Part shown: positions 5,646-41,331 of the stretch, one piece after another | Layout: each line of letters starts with the position of its first letter | Numbering within the stretch: position 1 is the first letter of the stretch | Source: Capsaspora owczarzaki ATCC 30864 | Lineage: Eukaryota; Opisthokonta; Filasterea | Direction: 5' to 3' | Assembly: GCF_000151315.2 (NCBI RefSeq) | Contig: NW_011887300.1 | Location: 929,003-993,002, forward strand | Length of the DNA: 64,000 nt | The notes under the pieces: generated by a model | Seen by the model: the letters and a program-made list of their open reading frames with translations, nothing else | Told to the model about the DNA's origin: nothing | Databases searched by the model: none | Program-made: the position numbers and the translations under genes

Positions 5646-8338
5646 TCAATCGGTTTTCATGGGCATCGTGCGAGGCTGCGCGAATAAACTTTGACTGGTT
5701 GCTGGTGAGCCGTGCGACGAGACTCGCGCGATATTATGCACGAGATCGACTGCAGCTGTTGGAGAATCAAACGACACGTCAAGGCCGCGGTCTCTGAGCA
5801 GTCTGTTGGTCGTGCAAAAGTACCGAAAAGCAGCGGCGGGCAAATGAGAAACGTCAAGGACAGACAGCAATGCAAACACACAACCACTACTTACGCGCTG
5901 ATCTGAAGAGTCAACAGTTGAGACTCTGATGACAATCGCTGCTGCGCATCTTTGCAAACATTCAAGGCCTCCTGCACAAGCCGAGCAGTCAGTCACTCTG
6001 TTACGGCATTGTTCCTCGAACAAACAAACGAACGAGCAAGCACCAACCACCTCACCTTCTCACGCTCTAGCTGAGCTCGGAGCTCGAGAAGCTCGCCCGG
6101 TGAGCCAAGCGACGCAATCATCTTGAATGCTTTGAGATAGGTGTGCTGCACAAGCGTTGCCAACGCGCCAGCCGCCTGAAAGCTATAGGCCGCATCGGAA
6201 GTGTTGGGGTCGGAGAGCTGCTCAATGTACTGCATCAAATCCCGGTCTTGTTCAAAGTTGGACACGGGCGGCGCTTCGTCAGACAGCGGGCAGTACAGCG
6301 CCATCGCCTCAAGCATCTCGTCGGTGAGATCTTCCACATTTGCATTCAGCGTGTCCTCAAACCCGAGAGGAACAAAGTCGGGCAAACGAGGAGCTGCACG
6401 CAGCACTGGTGATGTTGGCACTGCACGAGAAAAGTCGTCGCTACGGTGGTCGTCCTCGCGTTGTAGTTGAGCTTGTCGTTCCTGGCGCTGCCGCTGACGG
6501 CGACGATGCCGACTCCGACTGTCGTGTCGGGAAGATGGCGGAGAGGCCGTTTGAGGCGATGGCGACGGAGCAAAGTTCGGCAGAGGGCTCACGTTCATCG
6601 AAATGGATTTTCGCGATGGTCGTTGGCCACGTGAGCCACTGCTTGGATAGGATGGGGAGCTCGGGCGAGTGGGCCGAGGGGATGACGTGCTCGAACCGGG
6701 TGTGGAACGCGACGGCTGGCGGTGGCGCCGGCCACCGGAAAAGAATGGCGAAAGGTTGAGGGATTTCACCCCGGTATGCCCGTAATCCGCGACCACAATG
6801 TCATCGTCGTCGGTTTCGGGGCTCGAGGTACTGTCATCCTGGAGCTCCTGCTGGTCCTCCGAATCGACATCGTACCTTCCCGAGCGTCGGCGCGACGTTT
6901 CCCCGCGCGAACGCGTTGAGCGCGACGTGGCTCCGGCAGAGGCGCTTTGCTTTTGCAAAAACCGCCACAAGCGCGTATAATCAACCCGGTGGACAAAGAA
7001 TGGAACAGACTTGTTGGTCCAGGACACGCCTTGCCCACCATAACGAATGCACCGGACTCGCATGACGCTTTCGAGCGAGCCGACGTTGCGCGATGTGAGC
7101 TTGACCTTTTCCAACGGTGCAAACGCCGAAGACGACACAATCTTGGCCCCGTGCTCGAGCAGCTCTTCAAACCGCTGGCGAAGGGAGAGATTGAGTTGGG
7201 GATCGAACACGTAGTTGTTGACGAAAATGATGGTGGCGCCTTTGATGCGTGGCCGCACTTCGTCCTCGAGAAAGTCGCCATGGGCCAGTTCAAAGGGCCC
7301 GCTCGTTCGGCCTCACCAGCGGAGGCGATGCTGAAACTCTTCGCCCATGTCGTTGGCGTACTTTGCGCAAATGTCGCGCTTTTCGATGCCGTAGGTGCGG
7401 CACCCCGTCTGGAGCGCCACCTGCAGCACAGCCTGGCCGACTCCAGAGCCGAGATCAATGAAAATGTCGTCCTTGGTGATGGGCACCTTCTCGACGAGGC
7501 AGTGAATCATTTCAAAGTTGACTTCGCCGTACACTTCCGCCGAGAAGCCCTTGTAGCCGTTCAGTGTCCGCGGATCGGTGATGACTCTGTTGTAGACCTG
7601 TGTCATGATGTGCGACACGAGATCGAACGGCAACCGCGAGTAGCTGGCCGTGGCGGGCGTTGACTGCGACGCTGTCGACGAGGATGGGTTCATGGGACCG
7701 TCCGGCTCCAGCTGCCGCTCCCGCTCGAGGCGAGCATGTCGGATTGGCTTGAGCCGTTCTACCTCTGCATTGAATGTGTCTAGGAGCCTTGTCATTGCGG
7801 CCAAATCGGTGCGCTTGACCGTGTTCACGGTATACGTGTAATCCGGCATCCCTTCCGGCTGAAAGTCCCTCGCGACGAGTCTACCGAGTATTCACCATTG
7901 GAACAATGCTTACAGGAGTGAGACAAAAACTTGCCAATTGTTTGACACGACACTGTATCCCTTTGAGTGTGCGTACCGGATTGTATTGAGCAGGTCGGTT
8001 GCTGGGTCAAACTCGTCGATCGGCCGCAGCGGCCACTTGTAGACTTCTGGCTCGATGCCCTAACAACAGCACACACACGCAGCGCAGTAGTAGTGGGATG
8101 AGGATGGGGGGGGGTTAGGGTTGGGGTTCGCTCAATGACGCTTCCATACAAATGTCAACTCTGCCCTCTCTCTCCGCCTGGTCTCTCCATTGCACAATGC
8201 ACACGCTTGTACCATGCACGGGCTGCTGACGCGGAGCTCAATGTCGGGTGCTGCTGCTGCGCTGGCGTGCATTGCGAGCAGCTTTGCAATGGCTGCTGCT
8301 TGTCCTGCATTGTCGCCGTTGCTGCTGTCTGCACTCAT
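5646..8338 (-). CDS. DOT1: DOT1 histone H3-K79 methyltransferase, with in-frame TGA in the catalytic core
   Basis: DOT1 transfers methyl groups from SAM to H3 Lys79 on nucleosomes. Five exons: 8338-8213, 8059-7931, 7858-6056, 5971-5895 and 5802-5646, about 763 codons. The N-terminal part aligns with animal DOT1L: IEPEVYKWPLRP, then a helical region, then YNRVITDPRTLNGYKGFS and AEVYGEVNFEMI. SAM-binding motif I is DIFIDLGSGVGQAVLQVA, followed by YGIEKRDICAKYA. After exon-3 codon 182 (EFQHRLRW) comes TGA at 7312-7310. The same frame then continues with GRTSGPFELAHGDFLEDEV, FVNNYVFDP, KIVSSSAFAPL and VSWTNKSVPFFVHRVDY, all expected DOT1 segments with no length gap. The Ser/Arg/Pro-rich tail resembles DOT1L's disordered C terminus. 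The last two exons and the weak GTTTTT donor of exon 2 are less certain. The start is 116 bp from the divergent RRM-R3H gene. Confidence 0.93.
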
Positions 8339-32153: not shown

Positions 32154-35100
32154 TCACTGCGATGGTGGCTGCGAGGCATGTGACGGCGGTGCTGCAAAAG
32201 TAGAGCTTGCTACTGATGGTGCTGCAGCAGTAGTGGAGGGAGAATGAACTGCTCCAGGTGTTGCAACAACAGCTGTTGCTGCTGTTGAAACGGCCGCTGG
32301 TAGTGATACCGAAACTCGCAGTCCTGGCACGGCAGCTGTGTTCGGAGCCGGTCGCCCCACTCCCGGAGAAAACACACCCCCTTGTCTCACCCACAGAACG
32401 CTTTGTTGTGGCTGTGCGCGCTGTGGCGGTTGAGCTTGTGGCTGTTGTTGTGGGTGTAGTGGTTGAACTTGTGGCTGTTCCTGCGGCTGTTGTGGCTGCT
32501 GTGGTGGCTGGACTGGGGCAGGGGATGGTGCCTGATGCGGGGCATCGGCTGCTGGCTGGAACATAAATACCGGCGATATTGGCGGGGGAATCGCTGGAAC
32601 GACGGGCCCGGCTGGCGGTCGGATGACAAACCGGCCTGGAAACCCCATTTGACGCACTGCTGTTGGGCCGCCGCGGTGAAGGATGCGCACTTGTCGCGGG
32701 CGTTGCTCGGCAATCAGGCCAGACTCGACGCCGGGAATCTCAAAGCGGTTGTAAAAGAACAGCGTGACGTGGAGCGAAAAGAGCGCGCACACGACGAACG
32801 CGAGGTACGCAAAGGTGTACGGGCAAAGCAGCACGTAAGTGTAAAAGGCAAACTGGAAGAGTCCGATAAAGCGCGCCCAGTACATGAGCGATGTTCCACA
32901 GCGGATTCTGCACAAAGCGAACCGGGGGTGGGCGGAGGTTTAGGACAACAAATGAGCGACCAACTCCCCAAACGAGCATCCGACATTTGCACGCCTCATC
33001 TTTCAACACTCACGAGACGACAGAAAACAGTTGCAACAACCACAGCTGCAAGTAAACAAGGATGGCAAGTGCGTGGTCATCCAAAAAGTCGGCCAAGAAG
33101 TAAACCATGCCGACGAGGACCTGTCACGACGCAAAGCCAAGTGCAAGCCAAGTGCAAGTCAGATACAACGTCCTCGTGCCTCTCAAGACACGGACTGAAT
33201 AGCAAGCCCAAACAAAAACTTACTAAAAACCACGCAGCAGTGTTGATACACTCGACAAGAAGTGCCCCAACTCGCACAGCATTGCTATTCTGTCGCACAA
33301 TTGCTTCAGCGGCAACTACCCCGCGACGACGGATCAGCAACAAATCAAACACACTTTCTGAATCACACACAAAAAAAAGCCAAACAAAGACACAAAACTA
33401 CGACGAACGTACCGGCCAACTGGAGCGCCCGGTTTTGCGCCTCTCTCAGCACCACACCCACGAGAACGGCGTTGGCGCCGACGAGAAAGACGGATGTAAG
33501 CGCAATGTCCACCTTTCCCACCCAGGTGCGGGCGTTCTGTGTCACGGTTTGCAGCATGGCCAAACTGTAGACTTCTCCGCTGTCCTCGTTGCACAGGTAA
33601 CCTACGACCAACAAAAACAAGAGCCATTTCGTCAGTCAGTACACCTTCCAAAACGTCAACCTCTCTCTCTGTCTGCCCCCCCCCCGCCGGGAGCAAGACA
33701 CACACCTGTGCCGTTTGACAGAACGGAAAAACTGTGCAGCAAAACACTCTCGTAGCCCGAAAAAGTGTCGAGCAGCAAATGCGTTCTCGCTCCGCCGAGA
33801 CACGCGCTATCAACAGTAATGGAGATGGTAGAAATGTTGAGAGCGTGGCGGGCACTCTCGGAAAGTTGCAGGAAGCCGAGCTCGGGCGCAAACTCAAAGA
33901 CGGATTGATCAAACGAGACGGAGGCCATCAGCTCGTCCACCCGTGCTTCAGTAAAGTGCTGGTGCCGCAGAGTGAACGCGGCAGAGTCCAGGTCTGCCGT
34001 GTCACCATAGTCCGCGCCAGCACGGAGCGAGGCATCGTCCGCAGCGGCAGTGGCTCGGCAAGTGCCTGCAATGTCGTCTGTCACCGACTGGGACGAGCAC
34101 TGATTTGCCGTGTTCTGATTCGAGCTCGTGCTGTTGTCATCGTCATCATCGCCATCGCCATCGCCATTGTCGTCGTCATCATCGTCATCGTCGTCGTCAA
34201 CGACGACAGCAGCGTTGTCATTGTGAGTCGTATCCTCTGCTGCACGGCGAATCTGACGCTCAGTCAGCCCCAACGCCGAAATGAGACGAACTGGCGATCT
34301 GGCGCCAATGATATCGAGCATTGCGTGCGCCAGAATGGACAGACGCCATGGCTTGGACGGCGGGCGAGCCTCGCTGTCGTCGTCGGGATTCTTGTCCGGA
34401 TGGGTGTCGTCGTCGATGGCTTCCGGGTCAAAGTATGCATGCAATGCATATGCCAGCTCTGGAAAGATGGCCGGGAAGAGCGCCCGAATCGCGTGAATGT
34501 TTTCGTGTTGCGGCCGACGGATGGATCCGAGTCGGCTTGACGCTGTTGACCGACTCGATGCCTGCTGCTGCGCTGCAGCGTCGTGCAGACTCTCGTCCGT
34601 GGCCTCGTGTTCTTGAGGATGTTCTGGCTGAGCAGTCTGAGCAGTCTGAGCGGTTTCTGTCGCTGATCGAGGCGTTTTGCCAGTCTTGGTGACTGTTCCG
34701 GGCGTTCGCTGCGCCGCTCGATCTGACAATGGATCTGCTGGTAATCGAAGCAGCGTCTGTCTGACAATGGCCTTGATTGGCGACTCGACAGTGACTCGTA
34801 CGACCTGTTTTTGTTTTCGTCACCAAATGTTGTAAACATCAGTTCGTTTCTCAGAATTCGCGGATTTTTCCCAGTTTTCAAATCAAAGGCATAATTGATT
34901 CAATGCATTCTGCGCAACTCGCTTCGCCAGAGCTTCCTCACCTGGAATGGCGGCGGCGCAGTGACGGGCGGCTCAATGGGTTTGGCTGCAAGTGGCTGGC
35001 CGAGCACGAACGCGGCGTCCGCCAGCTGCAGCGTCATATCCGACTGGCCAGTTGTACTTGCATCTGCGTTCTGATACTCGCCGTGTGCGTTGAGCGGCGG

Positions 35101-35442
35101 CGGCGGCAGTGGCGGACTGGCTGGAGCGAGATTGAGCGGCAATGCATTCGCAGCGCTGAGCCGTAACGCAAGGCAGCGATGCCCAGCCAGCTGCAGACCA
35201 TCATCATCACCGCCATCACTAGGACTGTCATGCTTGTCATGATAGGCGTGAAGTGGAGGAGGGACGAATCGCGAGTGCAGCTGGACCAGCGTCGACAGGA
35301 GCAGCACTGCAGCGAGCAGCACGAACGACTCGACCAGCAGCCGCGACCGGGGCGTCGGAAGCACTGCCCGGTAGTAATGCATGAGCTGAACATGCATGCG
35401 GAAGAAGCCGTCCACGGGTCTGTTGATTGGGAAGGCGTCCAT
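32154..35442 (-). CDS. TMEM259: Membralin (TMEM259) homologue
   Basis: Membralin is a multi-pass ER membrane protein linked to ER-associated degradation in animals. Six exons: 35442-34942, 34804-33706, 33601-33413, 33357-33224, 33120-33014 and 32907-32154; every junction holds frame, 927 residues. The first ATG gives MDAFPINRPVDGFF, then TM1 (LLVESFVLLAAVLLLSTLVQ). The large lumenal part ends with the family block FAPELGFLQLSESARHALNI, then LLDTFSGYESVLLHSF. TM helices follow in exons 3-6, with VLVGMVYFLADFLDD and ARFIGLFQFAFYTYVLLCPY matching the animal four-helix region. The C-terminal ~200 residues are Pro/Gln-rich and cytosolic. It is longer than human membralin (about 620 aa) because of a lumenal insertion with an Asp run (34130-34210) and the Pro/Gln tail. 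Confidence 0.92.
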
Positions 35443-35749
35443 GGGTTTTGAAGTCCCAATCGTGAAAACGCCTGCTTTGGTGCTTTTTGGTGTATGGATT
35501 GGAAAGAAGGAGGAGTGCGCGCGCAAAAAAATGGTGCGAACATTCTCAGACAAGACAGGATAAGGGGGTAACCAGGGAATATACCAGGTCTATTGGTGGA
35601 AGAGAAGGACAGCAACAAAACAACAACAACAACAACAACAACAGCCAACAACAAAAAGTTGAAACGCTTCAAGCGGATGGCTTTTCAGCACGGGACTTTT
35701 GAATCTGTGGTCGCAGAACAAACAGAGCAGAGAAGGGGTGAGCATTTCA
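35443..35749. other. Intergenic region between membralin and the Ras-like-DHR-1 gene
   Basis: 307 bp containing an AAC microsatellite (about 35618-35643). It probably carries the membralin promoter and the 3' UTR of its neighbour on the same strand. No gene. Confidence 0.5.
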
Positions 35750-38700
35750 CTACGATTGTCGCTCAACCACCACCAACTTGATGCTTTTTACCAAAACAGC
35801 CTTGGTACGCTCCAACGCCGCATCGAGCTCGCGCAGGAGCAGCGTGAGCTTGTCTGTCGAAAGCATGTCGAGGTCGTGCCCCAATAGCTGCTGCCGCGTT
35901 AGCGATTCAACAACAGATTGGCTGTACGGAATGGGCAGCTTGGGCGGGCCGTCAGAGACAGTCTTGTCCTTCCGCGGCGGCAGCGGAGGCTGGACGTAGA
36001 TTGGATTCGGATTCGCTCCAATAGCCACGCTGCCAGCAGCAGGAGCAGCAGCGGGCGGGGGCGGAGGCGAGGTCAGGCGCGGCGAACGGGTCCGCTCGGG
36101 AATCGCAGGAGGCTGGTCGAGGTTGGAGGCCGTTTCGTCAAAGACAATGGCGGCCCGGTTGTTTCCCGACCCTGCTGCAGATGGCTTTGGTGCAGCAAGG
36201 ACGGCGTGATTCTTTTGTGGCACCTGGTACTCTGCAGAGACGGCAGGCTTGGCCGATGTCGGCGGCGCCACTGCTTCGGGAGCATCGCCGGGACGCGGAG
36301 GCAGCTTTGGTCGCGAGTCCGAGGGCTGGGCATACAGGGCCGAGGCCGCTGTTCCCGCGGACGAAGCCGACAACGCGTCCGACACGACGGCATAGTCGGA
36401 GGACTTGACCGGAGCGGGGAGCGTGCCTTTGTGGCTCTCGTTCTCGCGGGTTGAGAGCATGATCGAGACAAACAGGGAATCGTTCTTCTGAGGGGCGGGG
36501 GTTTCTTCGCCTGAGCGTTTAGGATTGAGGGGTCGAGGCAGAGTGAGGAAACAAGCGTGAATCTCGAATGCAATAGAAAAAAACCCCAAGAAAACAAACC
36601 AAACTCGCTCCAACACATACCTTCAGCAAGCGACCTCATCTTGAGAGAATACGGCTTGCCAACCTGATGCTCAAGCCGGTGAAGCACACACTGGTACTGG
36701 CCATCAGCGACTGGCAGGAGCTTTTGTGAATGAGGGTCGCGGTGGTTCAACGGCAAGAAGCAGTATCCGACCGTCAAGCCGCTCGTCTTGAATTTATCTG
36801 TGTGCGCCATGTGCGGAACAAAAGGACATCAAAGGCAATCAAAATGCATGGTGATCAGAAGACCAAAGAATCAAGAAAATCAACGCAAAACAACTTTTCA
36901 CACAAACAAAACATACCTCGCTCAGAGCAGTCTCGCACGACCATCAGCAAGTGCGTTCGCTTGTATTCAATGACAGGAATGCTTGCACGGAATGTCTCGT
37001 GCCATGCTGGATGCAACGTGCTCGAATACACGACGCTCTTGTACGTGGCATCGGTCGGAAGGAATCGCGAGTTGGGGCTCGGATCGCCTGTCTCGCGGAG
37101 CAGGTGGAATGTCACCTCGACACCACGACGCAAGTCATCGCTGTGGAAATCGCCGCGAAGGAGAGACACGTAGAGTTCGTTGGTCGGCGGTCGGGGGTCG
37201 TGCGAGGCGAGCACCAAGGCAGCCGTCTGCCCACTGACGGCAATGTTCGGCGGTGGGTGGAAGGGAGAGCGGTACGCAACGTGGCCAATGCAGTGGACCA
37301 GCTGGATCTTGCCGCCCAGCATGTCCGTCTTGTGGTCTTGCATGACAGCGGCGGATTCGCCCTTGAACAGCTGGAGGGTGGCGAGGACAAAGCCGTCGCC
37401 GTGCACAGGAGCCTTGTGGGCCTGGCGCACCGTGCCTTGGACCGAGGCCGACATGCCCACGTTGCCGAGAGTGGTGCCGCCAGCCGTGTCCGTTTCGGAC
37501 GCTGCCGACGGAAACTTTGACTTTTTGCAAATCGAAGCGGGCGTCTGCATAAACTCCTTGTCCTTGCCGCAGAGATGGATGGCCAAGGTGAACGAGTTTC
37601 CAGAGTGGTCGCGCTGGGCCTTGACGACTTCCGACAGCGGGATGGTGGCCATACCGAACGGCTTGCGAATGGCGGGTCCGTCGCACGTGTTCACCAGCTT
37701 GACAATCTTGCACAGCAGCCACGTGTGGCGTGTCCAAAAGAGGTCATTCACTGGTGCGTTGGTGATGTACTGACGGAAGGAAAAAAACAAACGAAAGTGA
37801 TGATGGGTGAGAGAAGAGCTGGAATTCGCTTTGTCACAAGCACAGTGTGTGAAACAACAACACCCTTACCGAAAACAAAGCCGCCGTGCGGTCTCGGCTC
37901 GGCATGCCCAGGCTAGTGAGGGGAAGCATGAACGGCTCGGTGAAGACAACGTTGCGCTGCTTGTCGTAGAGCGAAAAGTAGATTTCGCAGTCCGTTCCGA
38001 CCGCACAAACAAGCGCCTCGAATTGGAACAAGAGGTGAAAGTTGAACTGTCGACAAAGAAGACAAGAAGACAAGAGAAAAAAAGGTGAGAGAGACCCTCG
38101 GCAAAGTACAACCACTCTTGGCCAGACAAAACAAACAAAAAAAAAAAAAAAAACACGGAATCAATCGTGGGCAGCCGCTCCATCGAGCCATGCGACGAGA
38201 GCGCCTCGCGGGAAGCGCTGTGGTCACCCTTGCCGTAGGTGCGCTTAATGTTCTGCTTGATGGCATCCAGCACACCGCGTTTATCGGCAGCCTCAACCGC
38301 GTGCTTGAGGCGACGCTGCTTGAGGGTGCGGACGCATGCTTCCGTGAAGCACTCGTCAATGTGCTTGTTGGTGGCAATGTTAATGTCCAGGAAGGGCACG
38401 CACAGGGCTTCGCTGACAATGGGGTTGGTGAGCGCACCGTCGCGCACGTTGCCCACCACAATGATGGGGATGTCTTCGTCGTCCTCCTTGACGGCGTTGA
38501 TGCGGTTGCGGTATGCCACCACGTTCGGGAAGGATCCTCGGACGACGTCCCGAGCCACGACCAAGAACGCGTCTGCTTGTCGGATGGCCTATAGTAGTGA
38601 CAGCAAGAGCCAAGTCATCGTGAGAGTGAGAAAGAAAAGTTCGAGGCGCATTGCGAATGAGCAAGGTTGATCTTGGCGGATTTTCTGTTTTCTTCTTCGA

Positions 38701-39803
38701 CTGTTCTCTTTGTAACTTCCAATATCACAGTTAGTGCTTCATCACCGACGCGAATGAGCAAGTTTGATCTTGGCGAATATGTTGAGATGTAGCTTTTCTT
38801 TTTTCTGTTTTTCTTCTTCGACCGTTCTCTTTGTCACTTCCAATATCACCGTTCGTGCTTCATCACCGACATCTTTAGTGTCCTAGGTCTCGGTCATCAT
38901 CATCTTTATCATATTTCTGTGATGATCTCGCTCGGTCATCTTCCTTTTTTGTTTCGTTTCCCTCTTTTCTGCTCTTCCTTCGCTGCTTCCAATGCCCACA
39001 GTCTGTGCTTCATCATCCATCATCATTATCATCATCAACTTTATCAATCTGTGATGGTGATCGCGAGGGACCATCCGTCGTTCGATGCCGTCGACTTGAA
39101 CCTTACCGCAATGTCGACCTCTTCGGCCTTGTTGGACTGGTCTGCGGTCTCGACGACCTCGACGAGGCACGTTTCGCCCTCGATCTTGACGTGCTTCTTG
39201 TGCGAGTGGCTGCCTGCATTCGAGAACGACGCTGCGCCAGAGTACAAGGGGCAAGGACGAAGGTCAGTGAATACATTTTGAATTTGGTGAAGCAGTCAAG
39301 TGAAGTGTTGATGACAAACCCCCCCACCCCCTCCACTTCCAGCAAACTCACACTCGCAACACACATGCAGACACATAGACACATGTATTGAAGGGAGTGG
39401 AAGAGAGTGGGAGAGTGGAACAATGCAATCCAATGGCCAATCCAAAAATGCAATGGAATCTCAAACAAACGGTAAGCCCGCTGCTACCACCGCACACCAC
39501 ACCACACACACGCGCTGATGGAGCTGTTTGTTTGATTGAAGTGCAATCAGCAATGAATAAAAAGCGGGATGGGGAGCGGGGGGCGCGGTATTACCGAGCT
39601 TCAGGTAGGCCGCAGCGAGCTCTTTGCGCAGCTTTGGATCGCCCAGCAGCAGCACGCGCTAAGAGTGTCATAAAGTGAGTCATCATGTCATGTCAAGTGA
39701 GTCATCCCCACCCCACAAGTCCAAAGTTGAAAAGCATGCTGGTTTTTAATGCATCCGTCAGATCAGTCGTTATCAATGGGTGCGTTACAATGGATTGCGA
39801 CAT
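35750..39803 (-). CDS. Degenerate Ras-like domain fused to a DOCK-type DHR-1 (C2) domain, no DHR-2
   Basis: Eight exons: 39803-39717 (tentative), 39658-39595, 39231-39107, 38588-38157, 38046-37870, 37769-36917, 36797-36621 and 36510-35750; 891 residues, phases consistent. Residues ~30-170 form a Ras fold: RVLLLGDPKLRKE, then KKHVKIEGETCLVEVVETAD, then AFLVVARDVVRGSF and IPIIVVGNVRD. All nucleotide motifs are damaged: the P-loop lacks G-K-S/T, DTAGQ reads ETADQ, NKxD reads NVRD. From ~235 comes DOCK-like sequence: FEALVCAVGTDCEIYFSLYD, HTWLLCKIVKL, RKPFGMATIPLSEV, then DHR-1 proper with NELYVSLLRGDFHSDD, SVVYSSTLHPAWHETF and GYCFLPLNHRDPHSQKLLPV. The C-terminal 250 residues are Pro-rich with PxxP motifs (PPLPPRKDK) and end in a helix. 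The catalytic DHR-2 (Rac/Cdc42 GEF) is absent. Inferred role: a phosphoinositide-binding adaptor. Confidence 0.85.
38652..38872. repeat. Imperfect ~110-bp tandem duplication in an intron
   Basis: Two copies start with GCGAATGAGCAAG and end with GTGCTTCATCACCGAC (38652-38749 and 38750-38870). They differ by substitutions and a ~23-bp insertion. A weaker third similarity follows downstream. The repeat lies between exons 3 and 4 of the Ras-like-DHR-1 gene. Confidence 0.8.
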
Positions 39804-40165: not shown

Positions 40166-41331
40166 TCACTCGCTATCAAAACTCGCCGATCGAGGGACAC
40201 GATGGGTGCGCTTCTTCCCTTGGGATGCAATCGCTTGGGCAATGCTGATTTTGGCGGCGACCTTTTGGCGCGGCGAGGCCTTCTTTAATGCTTTGACATC
40301 CTCACTGCCAGCTACACTTGATGCTTGTGCTGAGTGATGATCGGACGCCTTGCCGGTTGGGGAAAAGTTAAACCAGAGCACCTTGGCTTGCTCCTTTGCG
40401 GGAATGTGATCGGTCTCGTCAAACTCGACGCCCTCAGCCTGCAGAAAGTCCTTCTTGCAGCAGATGCGCTTTCCTTGTCCCCATTGTCTACAGGGAGACG
40501 TTGGGACAGAGTGGAAGCGCGTTCGTCAGTAACTGGTCGAACTGGAGAACAAAACGACTTGAAAATCAGTATGAATCGCGACAACTCACCCGGAGAAGCC
40601 TCCGACAAACAAGGACGAATCCAAGACGCGATGGCAAGGCACGTAGGGGGCAAACGGGTTGTTGCGCAATGCTTGTCCGACTACAGCGAGGAAGGAAAGC
40701 GAAGCGTGTAAGTGAGTCAGTTGTTTCAATCGCGAAGGGAAACGTCCATGACCATGCTGCGATGGTCGATCTCTCTGGATTCGTAGAGACACGCAAGTTC
40801 CATCCTGCACATTGAGGCAGGGGACACCAGCGGCGGGGGTGATTGCATGCGACGAACATGCAACCAACTCGCATTTCCCGCCATTTCGCTTCTGGCTTCG
40901 ATTGGGATGCTCGCCACGCTGCACAACCATATCCATTCGACACATGCACCACTGTCGTTTTTTGAAACAGCTCTGCGATGATGTGGCTCGAAGCAAAACA
41001 AAACGCTTTTGCGTTTGTTTGGGTTACCTGCGCGAGGTGCGGACGCGAGGTACTTTGCAATGTGGCCGTACGTCGTGATGCGGCCCTTGGGCACTTGCAG
41101 AATGGCGTCGTACACTGCAAAGCGGAATGGCGAGACGCGGTGCGCCCATCGGAGGCGAGCGGCGGCGGTCGTCGGGTACGCGGTCGGGTCGTGCACACTC
41201 GGCGGCATCCACTCGTCGTCGGTCACATTTGGGTTGTTGACGATGGCGAGTGTGGGGACGCTCGTCAGATGTGGTGCAGATGCTGGTTGCACTGCGGGTG
41301 AAGTGGTATCAGCGAGTGATTCGGAATTCAT
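40166..41331 (-). CDS. MGMT: O6-methylguanine-DNA methyltransferase
   Basis: A suicide repair enzyme that moves the alkyl group from O6-alkylguanine to its own Cys. Three exons: 41331-41028, 40680-40590 and 40487-40166, 238 residues. The start ATG (MNSESLADTT) is followed by a ~60-residue disordered tail. The helix-turn-helix region is FRFAVYDAILQVPKGRITTY (GHIA), then VGQALRNNPFAPYVPCHRVL with the acceptor Cys ~117 inside the invariant PCHRV. GGFSG follows in the expected place. The residue is Cys, not the Trp or Ala of alkyltransferase-like proteins, so activity is expected. Exon 3 continues GQGKRICCKKDFLQAEGVEF, the normal end of the domain, then a Lys/Ser-rich ~70-residue extension, possibly nuclear-targeting. 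It shares a 486-bp divergent upstream region with the BRO1 gene. Confidence 0.92.

Follow-up and report, generated by a model that had tools for sequence, protein, structure and literature searches.

The DOCK proteins are described in the available parts of two reviews as carrying both DHR-1 and DHR-2 (PMC8063744, PMC10152721), and their first C2 domain, which the accessible text of one study places at residues 219 to 389 of DOCK2 (PMC7351999), is named DHR3-C2 in the later review (PMC10152721). In the DOCK-A/B guanine nucleotide exchange factors (GEFs; DOCK1/2/5), these domains are accompanied by an N-terminal SH3 and helical region, which binds ELMO, and by a TPR/ARM region. A second point of comparison is p190RhoGAP, for which the available part of a published study shows by experiment that pseudoGTPase domains reside inside a RhoGAP (PMC5593906). 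We analyzed a 64,000-nucleotide stretch of the genome of Capsaspora owczarzaki ATCC 30864 (contig NW_011887300.1, positions 929,003 to 993,002; here called the window), and our sequence analysis confirms that one predicted gene within it combines a degenerate Ras-like domain with DOCK C2 sequence and is without DHR-2.

Like the DOCK-A/B GEFs and a second DOCK protein of the same genome (encoded on contig C1; here called the C1 DOCK), the window protein has a DHR3-C2 domain followed by DHR-1, together with a Pro-rich C-terminal tail, but neither DHR-2 nor the TPR/ARM region was found in it, and a Ras-like domain stands at the position of the SH3 and helical regions of DOCK-A/B. It resembles p190RhoGAP in carrying a GTPase-like domain without nucleotide-binding motifs in a multidomain protein of the Rho-pathway regulator type, as far as the available text of that study describes it (PMC5593906); in contrast to p190RhoGAP, the domain is of the Ras type, lies N-terminal to the DOCK C2 domains, and is known from sequence, and no catalytic Rho-regulator domain was found in the protein. 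H-, K-, and N-Ras end in a C-terminal membrane anchor, whereas the window chain continues at this point into DOCK sequence.

Nine exons on the minus strand, from 39803 to 35669, splice into a coding sequence (CDS) of 865 codons plus a stop codon, as predicted from GT...AG junctions and a phase check (Table 1). All eight introns have GT...AG ends and consistent phase, with lengths of 87 to 518 nt. The original prediction had ended the gene at 35750, which is a read-through of a plausible donor at 35791 (GTAAAAAG); removal of intron 35791-35705 adds the ninth exon that had been missed and moves the end of the protein to 35669, while the exon chain was correct elsewhere. Exon 1 (MSQSI) is the weakest of the exon assignments and would complete the first Ras strand in frame.

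Table 1. Predicted exons of the window protein and its neighboring genes (window coordinates).
Feature	Coordinates	Strand	Content	Basis
Exon 1	39789..39803	-	Putative start; residues 1 to 5 (MSQSI), where beta-1 begins	ATG...GT donor, frame continuing into exon 2
Exon 2	39595..39658	-	beta-1 and degenerate P-loop GDPKLRKE (39643-39620)	
Exon 3	39107..39231	-	Switch I in shortened form; interswitch KKHVKIEGETCLVEVVETADQ, in which the G3 motif is lost	phmmer to K/N/H-Ras; own-genome Ras-family alignment
Exon 4	38157..38588	-	Remaining Ras-like domain to about 38283, G4 (NVRD), G5 (NIA), basic linker	Pfam Ras over cut-off
Exon 5	37870..38046	-	Start of DOCK first C2 (DHR3-C2)	Pfam DOCK_N; DOCK5 alignment from residue 229
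Exon 6	36917..37769	-	Remaining first C2, divergent linker, most of DHR-1 (36917-37187)	Pfam DOCK_N and DOCK-C2; blastp to C1 DOCK
Exon 7	36621..36797	-	Later DHR-1 strands	Pfam DOCK-C2 to aa 614; DOCK1 and DOCK5 alignment
Exon 8	35792..36510	-	Probable last DHR-1 strand, Pro-rich tail, most of a putative terminal helix	Motif scan
Exon 9	35669..35704	-	Last 11 residues and stop codon	GTAAAAAG donor, CACAG acceptor, frame kept
MGMT-like gene	40166-41331	-		PF01035 (6-O-methylguanine DNA methyltransferase DNA-binding domain), split across exons; two open frames exceed the cut-off
Membralin-like gene	33656-35442	-	Likely start near 35442	PF09746; one open frame exceeds the cut-off, the other scores below it

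The junction between the Ras and DOCK parts coincides with the exon 4 donor (GTGTTTTT), the weakest of the eight, and the intron that joins exons 4 and 5 (38156-38047) opens with GTG followed by a poly-T run. As the splice chain is a prediction, this weak donor would suit a reading in which a divergent small GTPase gene and an adjacent gene for a DOCK-like fragment had been joined wrongly. We regard two genes as very improbable because of the frame geometry and the close neighbors: the first stop in the exon 4 frame lies at 37866, just beyond exon 5, the exon 5 frame has no Met upstream of the conserved sequence, and the 110-nt gap between the two has GT...AG ends and matching phase. The chain also lies between an MGMT-like and a membralin-like gene that are close by on the same strand, which leaves little space for further exons. 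The MGMT-like gene has an active-site motif, PCHRV, its C-terminal frame matched no Pfam family, and its last open frame ends at 40166; the membralin-like gene contains a very Asp-rich stretch. The splice prediction thus points with high probability to a single gene in which a Ras-like domain is fused to the DOCK tandem C2 domains.

The fold of the N-terminal part is predicted from a strong sequence match to Ras. In the spliced protein, Pfam Ras (PF00071) matched aa 32 to 152 with 30.7 bits (cut-off 21.6), and the best phmmer match in the PDB was the GTPase KRas (E 3.7e-13); the best 60 of 378 PDB sequences matched up to E 1 were all K-, N-, or H-Ras, a ranking biased by the abundance of Ras entries in the PDB. 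The interswitch resembles that of true Ras (GETCLVEVVETADQ versus GETCLLDILDTAGQ), and the same Ras-type interswitch is found in L009, the best-scoring of the five Ras-family paralogues in this genome (40.7 bits). Against one canonical Ras-family paralogue, the Ras part scored 25.6 bits compared to 5.9 for the best shuffle (500 shuffles per segment, with scores reported for 407 of 501 sequences). With the Ras part as query, tblastn reported none of the five paralogue loci at E <= 0.01; a repeat for L009 was again negative, and relaxing the limit to E <= 10 with composition correction switched off returned only three short pieces with E values of 1.2 or worse. The HMMER-based genome search and phmmer on peptides matched the Ras part to all five paralogues, and we relied on these despite the BLAST result. 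Single-sequence AlphaFold models of exon 4 and exon 6 alone were of low confidence (mean pLDDT of 37.4 and 34.3, respectively), so the folds predicted for both parts derive from sequence comparison.

The motifs on which the original prediction was built were located as described (GDPKLRKE at aa 11 to 18, ETADQ at aa 54 to 58, and GNVRD at aa 114 to 118), and the Pfam and PDB matches bear out its claim of a Ras-like domain. We aligned the domain with the five Ras-family sequences of the same genome, two of which cover G1, four switch I, all five G3, and three G5; wherever they cover these positions the paralogues retain the canonical letters, whereas all five G motifs (G1 to G5) of the window domain are degraded. 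In KRAS numbering, the P-loop carries G15R and S17E, switch I has lost T35 and is shortened by a deletion of four residues (about residues 31 to 34) that is absent in all four covering paralogues, and the G3 region carries D57E and G60D; in addition, G4 has K117V, the SAK of G5 is replaced by NIA, and the Tyr and Met of switch II are lost. The P-loop and NKxD motifs had been called lost, which overstates their condition, as the equivalents of G10 and K16 in the former and of N116 and D119 in the latter are kept.

With all G motifs damaged, the domain is predicted to have lost nucleotide binding. The four retained residues would allow a different reading, that the domain binds nucleotide in an unusual manner and controls the C2 module as a regulated switch, and some atypical GTPases do tolerate lost motifs. 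The combination of G15R, S17E, the loss of T35, K117V, and the SAK-to-NIA change makes this improbable; an arginine at position 15 places a side chain at the phosphate-binding site. The substitution of both G15 and S17 might also suggest a built-in dominant negative, in which a locked, nucleotide-free domain traps a RasGEF, given that substitution of either residue yields GEF-trapping Ras mutants. GEFs contact switch I and the switch II Tyr and Met of Ras, however, and the shortening of the former and loss of the latter leave such a trap with hardly any likelihood. Loss of nucleotide binding has a precedent in the degenerate GTPase-like pG1 domain of p190RhoGAP, which binds no nucleotide according to the available part of that study (PMC5593906), a further argument against unusual binding.

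Downstream of this domain the match to DOCK proteins is co-linear. Pfam DOCK_N (PF16172) matched aa 215 to 296 with 39.1 bits (cut-off 27), covering only profile positions 140 to 225 of 387, and DOCK-C2/DHR-1 (PF14429) matched aa 466 to 614 with 72.5 bits (cut-off 33.6). The DOCK part also matched DOCK5 (E 8.9e-16), in two co-linear stretches (DOCK5 residues 229 to 345 and 448 to 579). A co-linear blastp match to the open reading frame (ORF) of the C1 DOCK, a DOCK-A/B type of 1,373 aa, had an E value of 4e-21 and 24% identity, while a 776-aa ORF of a C/D-type DOCK on contig C11 gave only E 0.071. Shuffle controls against the C1 DOCK ORF yielded 28.7 bits for the first C2 part (best shuffle 4.9; scores reported for 235 of 501 sequences) and 36.8 bits for the DHR-1 part (best shuffle 1.9; 312 of 501). 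Exon 5 begins approximately where the DOCK2 C2 domain begins, and since DOCK5 residues 229 to 345 correspond to this first C2, the window protein has the DOCK tandem C2 pair. DOCK sequence and DHR-1 fused to the Ras domain had been correctly recognized, but as DHR-1 alone rather than as DHR3-C2 plus DHR-1. Matches of the window protein to the general C2 family PF00168 (18.2 bits versus a cut-off of 22) and to the poxvirus family PF05796 (12.5 versus 25) fell below the cut-offs and were not used.

The lipid pocket of DHR-1 appears to have diverged as well. In the PIP3 model of DOCK1 DHR-1, as given in the accessible part of its description, three basic contacts lie in loop L1 and one in L3 (PMC7893821). 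The L1 loop of the window protein (GDFHSDDLRRGVEV) is two residues shorter than that of the C1 DOCK (GDFQQGRKSAPKNVEV) and acid-rich; it has two basic residues, compared to three each in the C1 DOCK and DOCK1, with acids added, while L3 retains several basic residues. As the loop is shorter and most of the basic character seen in DOCK-A/B has been lost, canonical PIP3 binding by this DHR-1 is doubtful, and the expectation that the protein binds phosphoinositides is weakened.

The tail contains three SH3-ligand-like segments of the form PxxPx[RK] in a motif scan (PKLPPR, PAIPER, and PPLPPR), although PxxP motifs are common in Pro-rich tails through composition alone, and the exon 8 segment matched no Pfam family. 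Against the C1 DOCK ORF the tail scored -7.6 bits, under the best shuffle (2.9), but because that ORF stops within DHR-2, before any tail, the comparison says little about whether the tail is a DOCK remnant. The terminal stretch RQQLLGHDLDMLSTDKLTLLLRELDAALERTK (35669-35900, minus strand) is a possible oligomerization helix. It resembles part of a K-box; the matches to K-box (15 versus a cut-off of 30 bits) and DUF1192 (15.6 versus 25.5 bits) were below the cut-offs and were not used.

No DHR-2 family was reported by Pfam in the spliced window protein. We also ran profile searches of the genome (29 contigs, 27.5 Mb), in which only the best candidates were scored, and found no match to DHR-2 lobe A or C on the window's own contig among the best-scoring candidates. 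Elsewhere, two lobe A and three lobe C matches were found, on contigs C1 and C11 only, two of the three lobe C matches being neighboring pieces on C11. Read without splicing, the C1 locus shows DOCK_N, C2, and TPR_DOCK together with lobes A and C of DHR-2, and the C11 locus shows DOCK_C-D_N and C2, with DHR-2 matches close by on the same strand. Every lobe A or C match among these candidates thus belongs to one of the two DOCK loci, which speaks against a DHR-2 exon spliced in from elsewhere and upholds the predicted absence of DHR-2, with no spare copy of lobe A or C found for the window gene. No SH3 family was found by Pfam in the window protein up to E 1, its N-terminus being Ras-like instead.

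Several other loci came up in these searches. A fourth candidate DOCK-C2 locus, on contig C2 (E 7.1e-4, below the cut-off), was rejected as a phosphatidylserine decarboxylase to which the general C2 family fits far better; in this gene (L017, 1102-6003), C1, C2, and EF-hand matches precede the decarboxylase in one 1,634-aa frame. ELMO_CED12 domains occur at three loci, a family that also covers ELMOD proteins. A long simple repeat, with NKQT repeated on the minus strand, lies between DHR-2 lobes A and C of the C1 DOCK (L015, about 6785-7710), and integrin-beta gave six matches at four loci in the genome.

Taken together, a degenerate Ras domain, its fusion to DOCK sequence, and the absence of DHR-2 stand from the original prediction, and its phosphoinositide binding is the part that has been weakened. 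We give a probability of roughly 55% to the reading that the gene encodes a noncatalytic, DOCK-derived scaffold or decoy. In the predicted architecture, a Ras-type domain that has lost its nucleotide-binding motifs stands where DOCK-A/B proteins have their SH3 domain and ELMO-binding helices and is joined at the domain boundary to DHR3-C2 and DHR-1, followed by the Pro-rich tail with its SH3-ligand-like motifs; neither an alpha-solenoid nor a DHR-2 GEF domain is present. The Ras-like domain may then serve as a fixed protein-binding surface that the C2 pair places in the cell, the tail may recruit SH3 proteins, and the protein may scaffold, or compete with, the catalytic DOCK proteins whose genes lie at other loci. 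Direct competition for ELMO is disfavored by the absence of the SH3 and helical region, and competition for PIP3 by the apparent degradation of the DHR-1 lipid pocket.

The main rival to this scaffold reading is that the locus is a decaying DOCK paralogue with a captured Ras domain, a pseudogene in progress that is presently functionless. Canonical functional residues are lost in both halves of the protein, it lacks SH3, helical, and solenoid regions as well as DHR-2, and identity to the C1 DOCK is only 24%, all of which would fit decay. We nonetheless consider it unlikely, as 865 codons remain open across nine exons and eight GT...AG introns, and third-position G+C in the CDS is 74% (80% in the Ras part, 75% in the C2 part, and 66% in the tail), compared to 79.5% in the C1 DOCK ORF and an overall G+C of 38 to 50% in the introns. 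A more specific form of the scaffold reading can be offered only tentatively: the gene may represent a new class of Rho-pathway adaptor, in which a pseudo-Ras domain has been swapped onto the DOCK tandem C2 domains in place of the ELMO-binding region, yielding a GEF-less antagonist or organizer of DOCK/Rac signaling or of Ras-to-Rac crosstalk in a single-celled relative of animals.

Searches of one open-access library gave no match for Capsaspora together with the DOCK family or for DOCK without DHR2, and among the matches listed (titles and the beginnings of abstracts) the Ras-DOCK C2 architecture is not recognized, although it may still have been published. No relatives were found in a viral contig collection, where a single pattern match was unconfirmed. 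If the scaffold reading is true, this would be a natural noncatalytic DOCK that keeps only the tandem C2 module and in which a dead Ras domain replaces the ELMO-binding part. Such a protein could reveal a role of the C2 pair without a GEF and could show the recruitment of a pseudoGTPase into the control of Rac near the origin of animals, and as Capsaspora can be cultured, the scaffold reading is testable in the organism itself.
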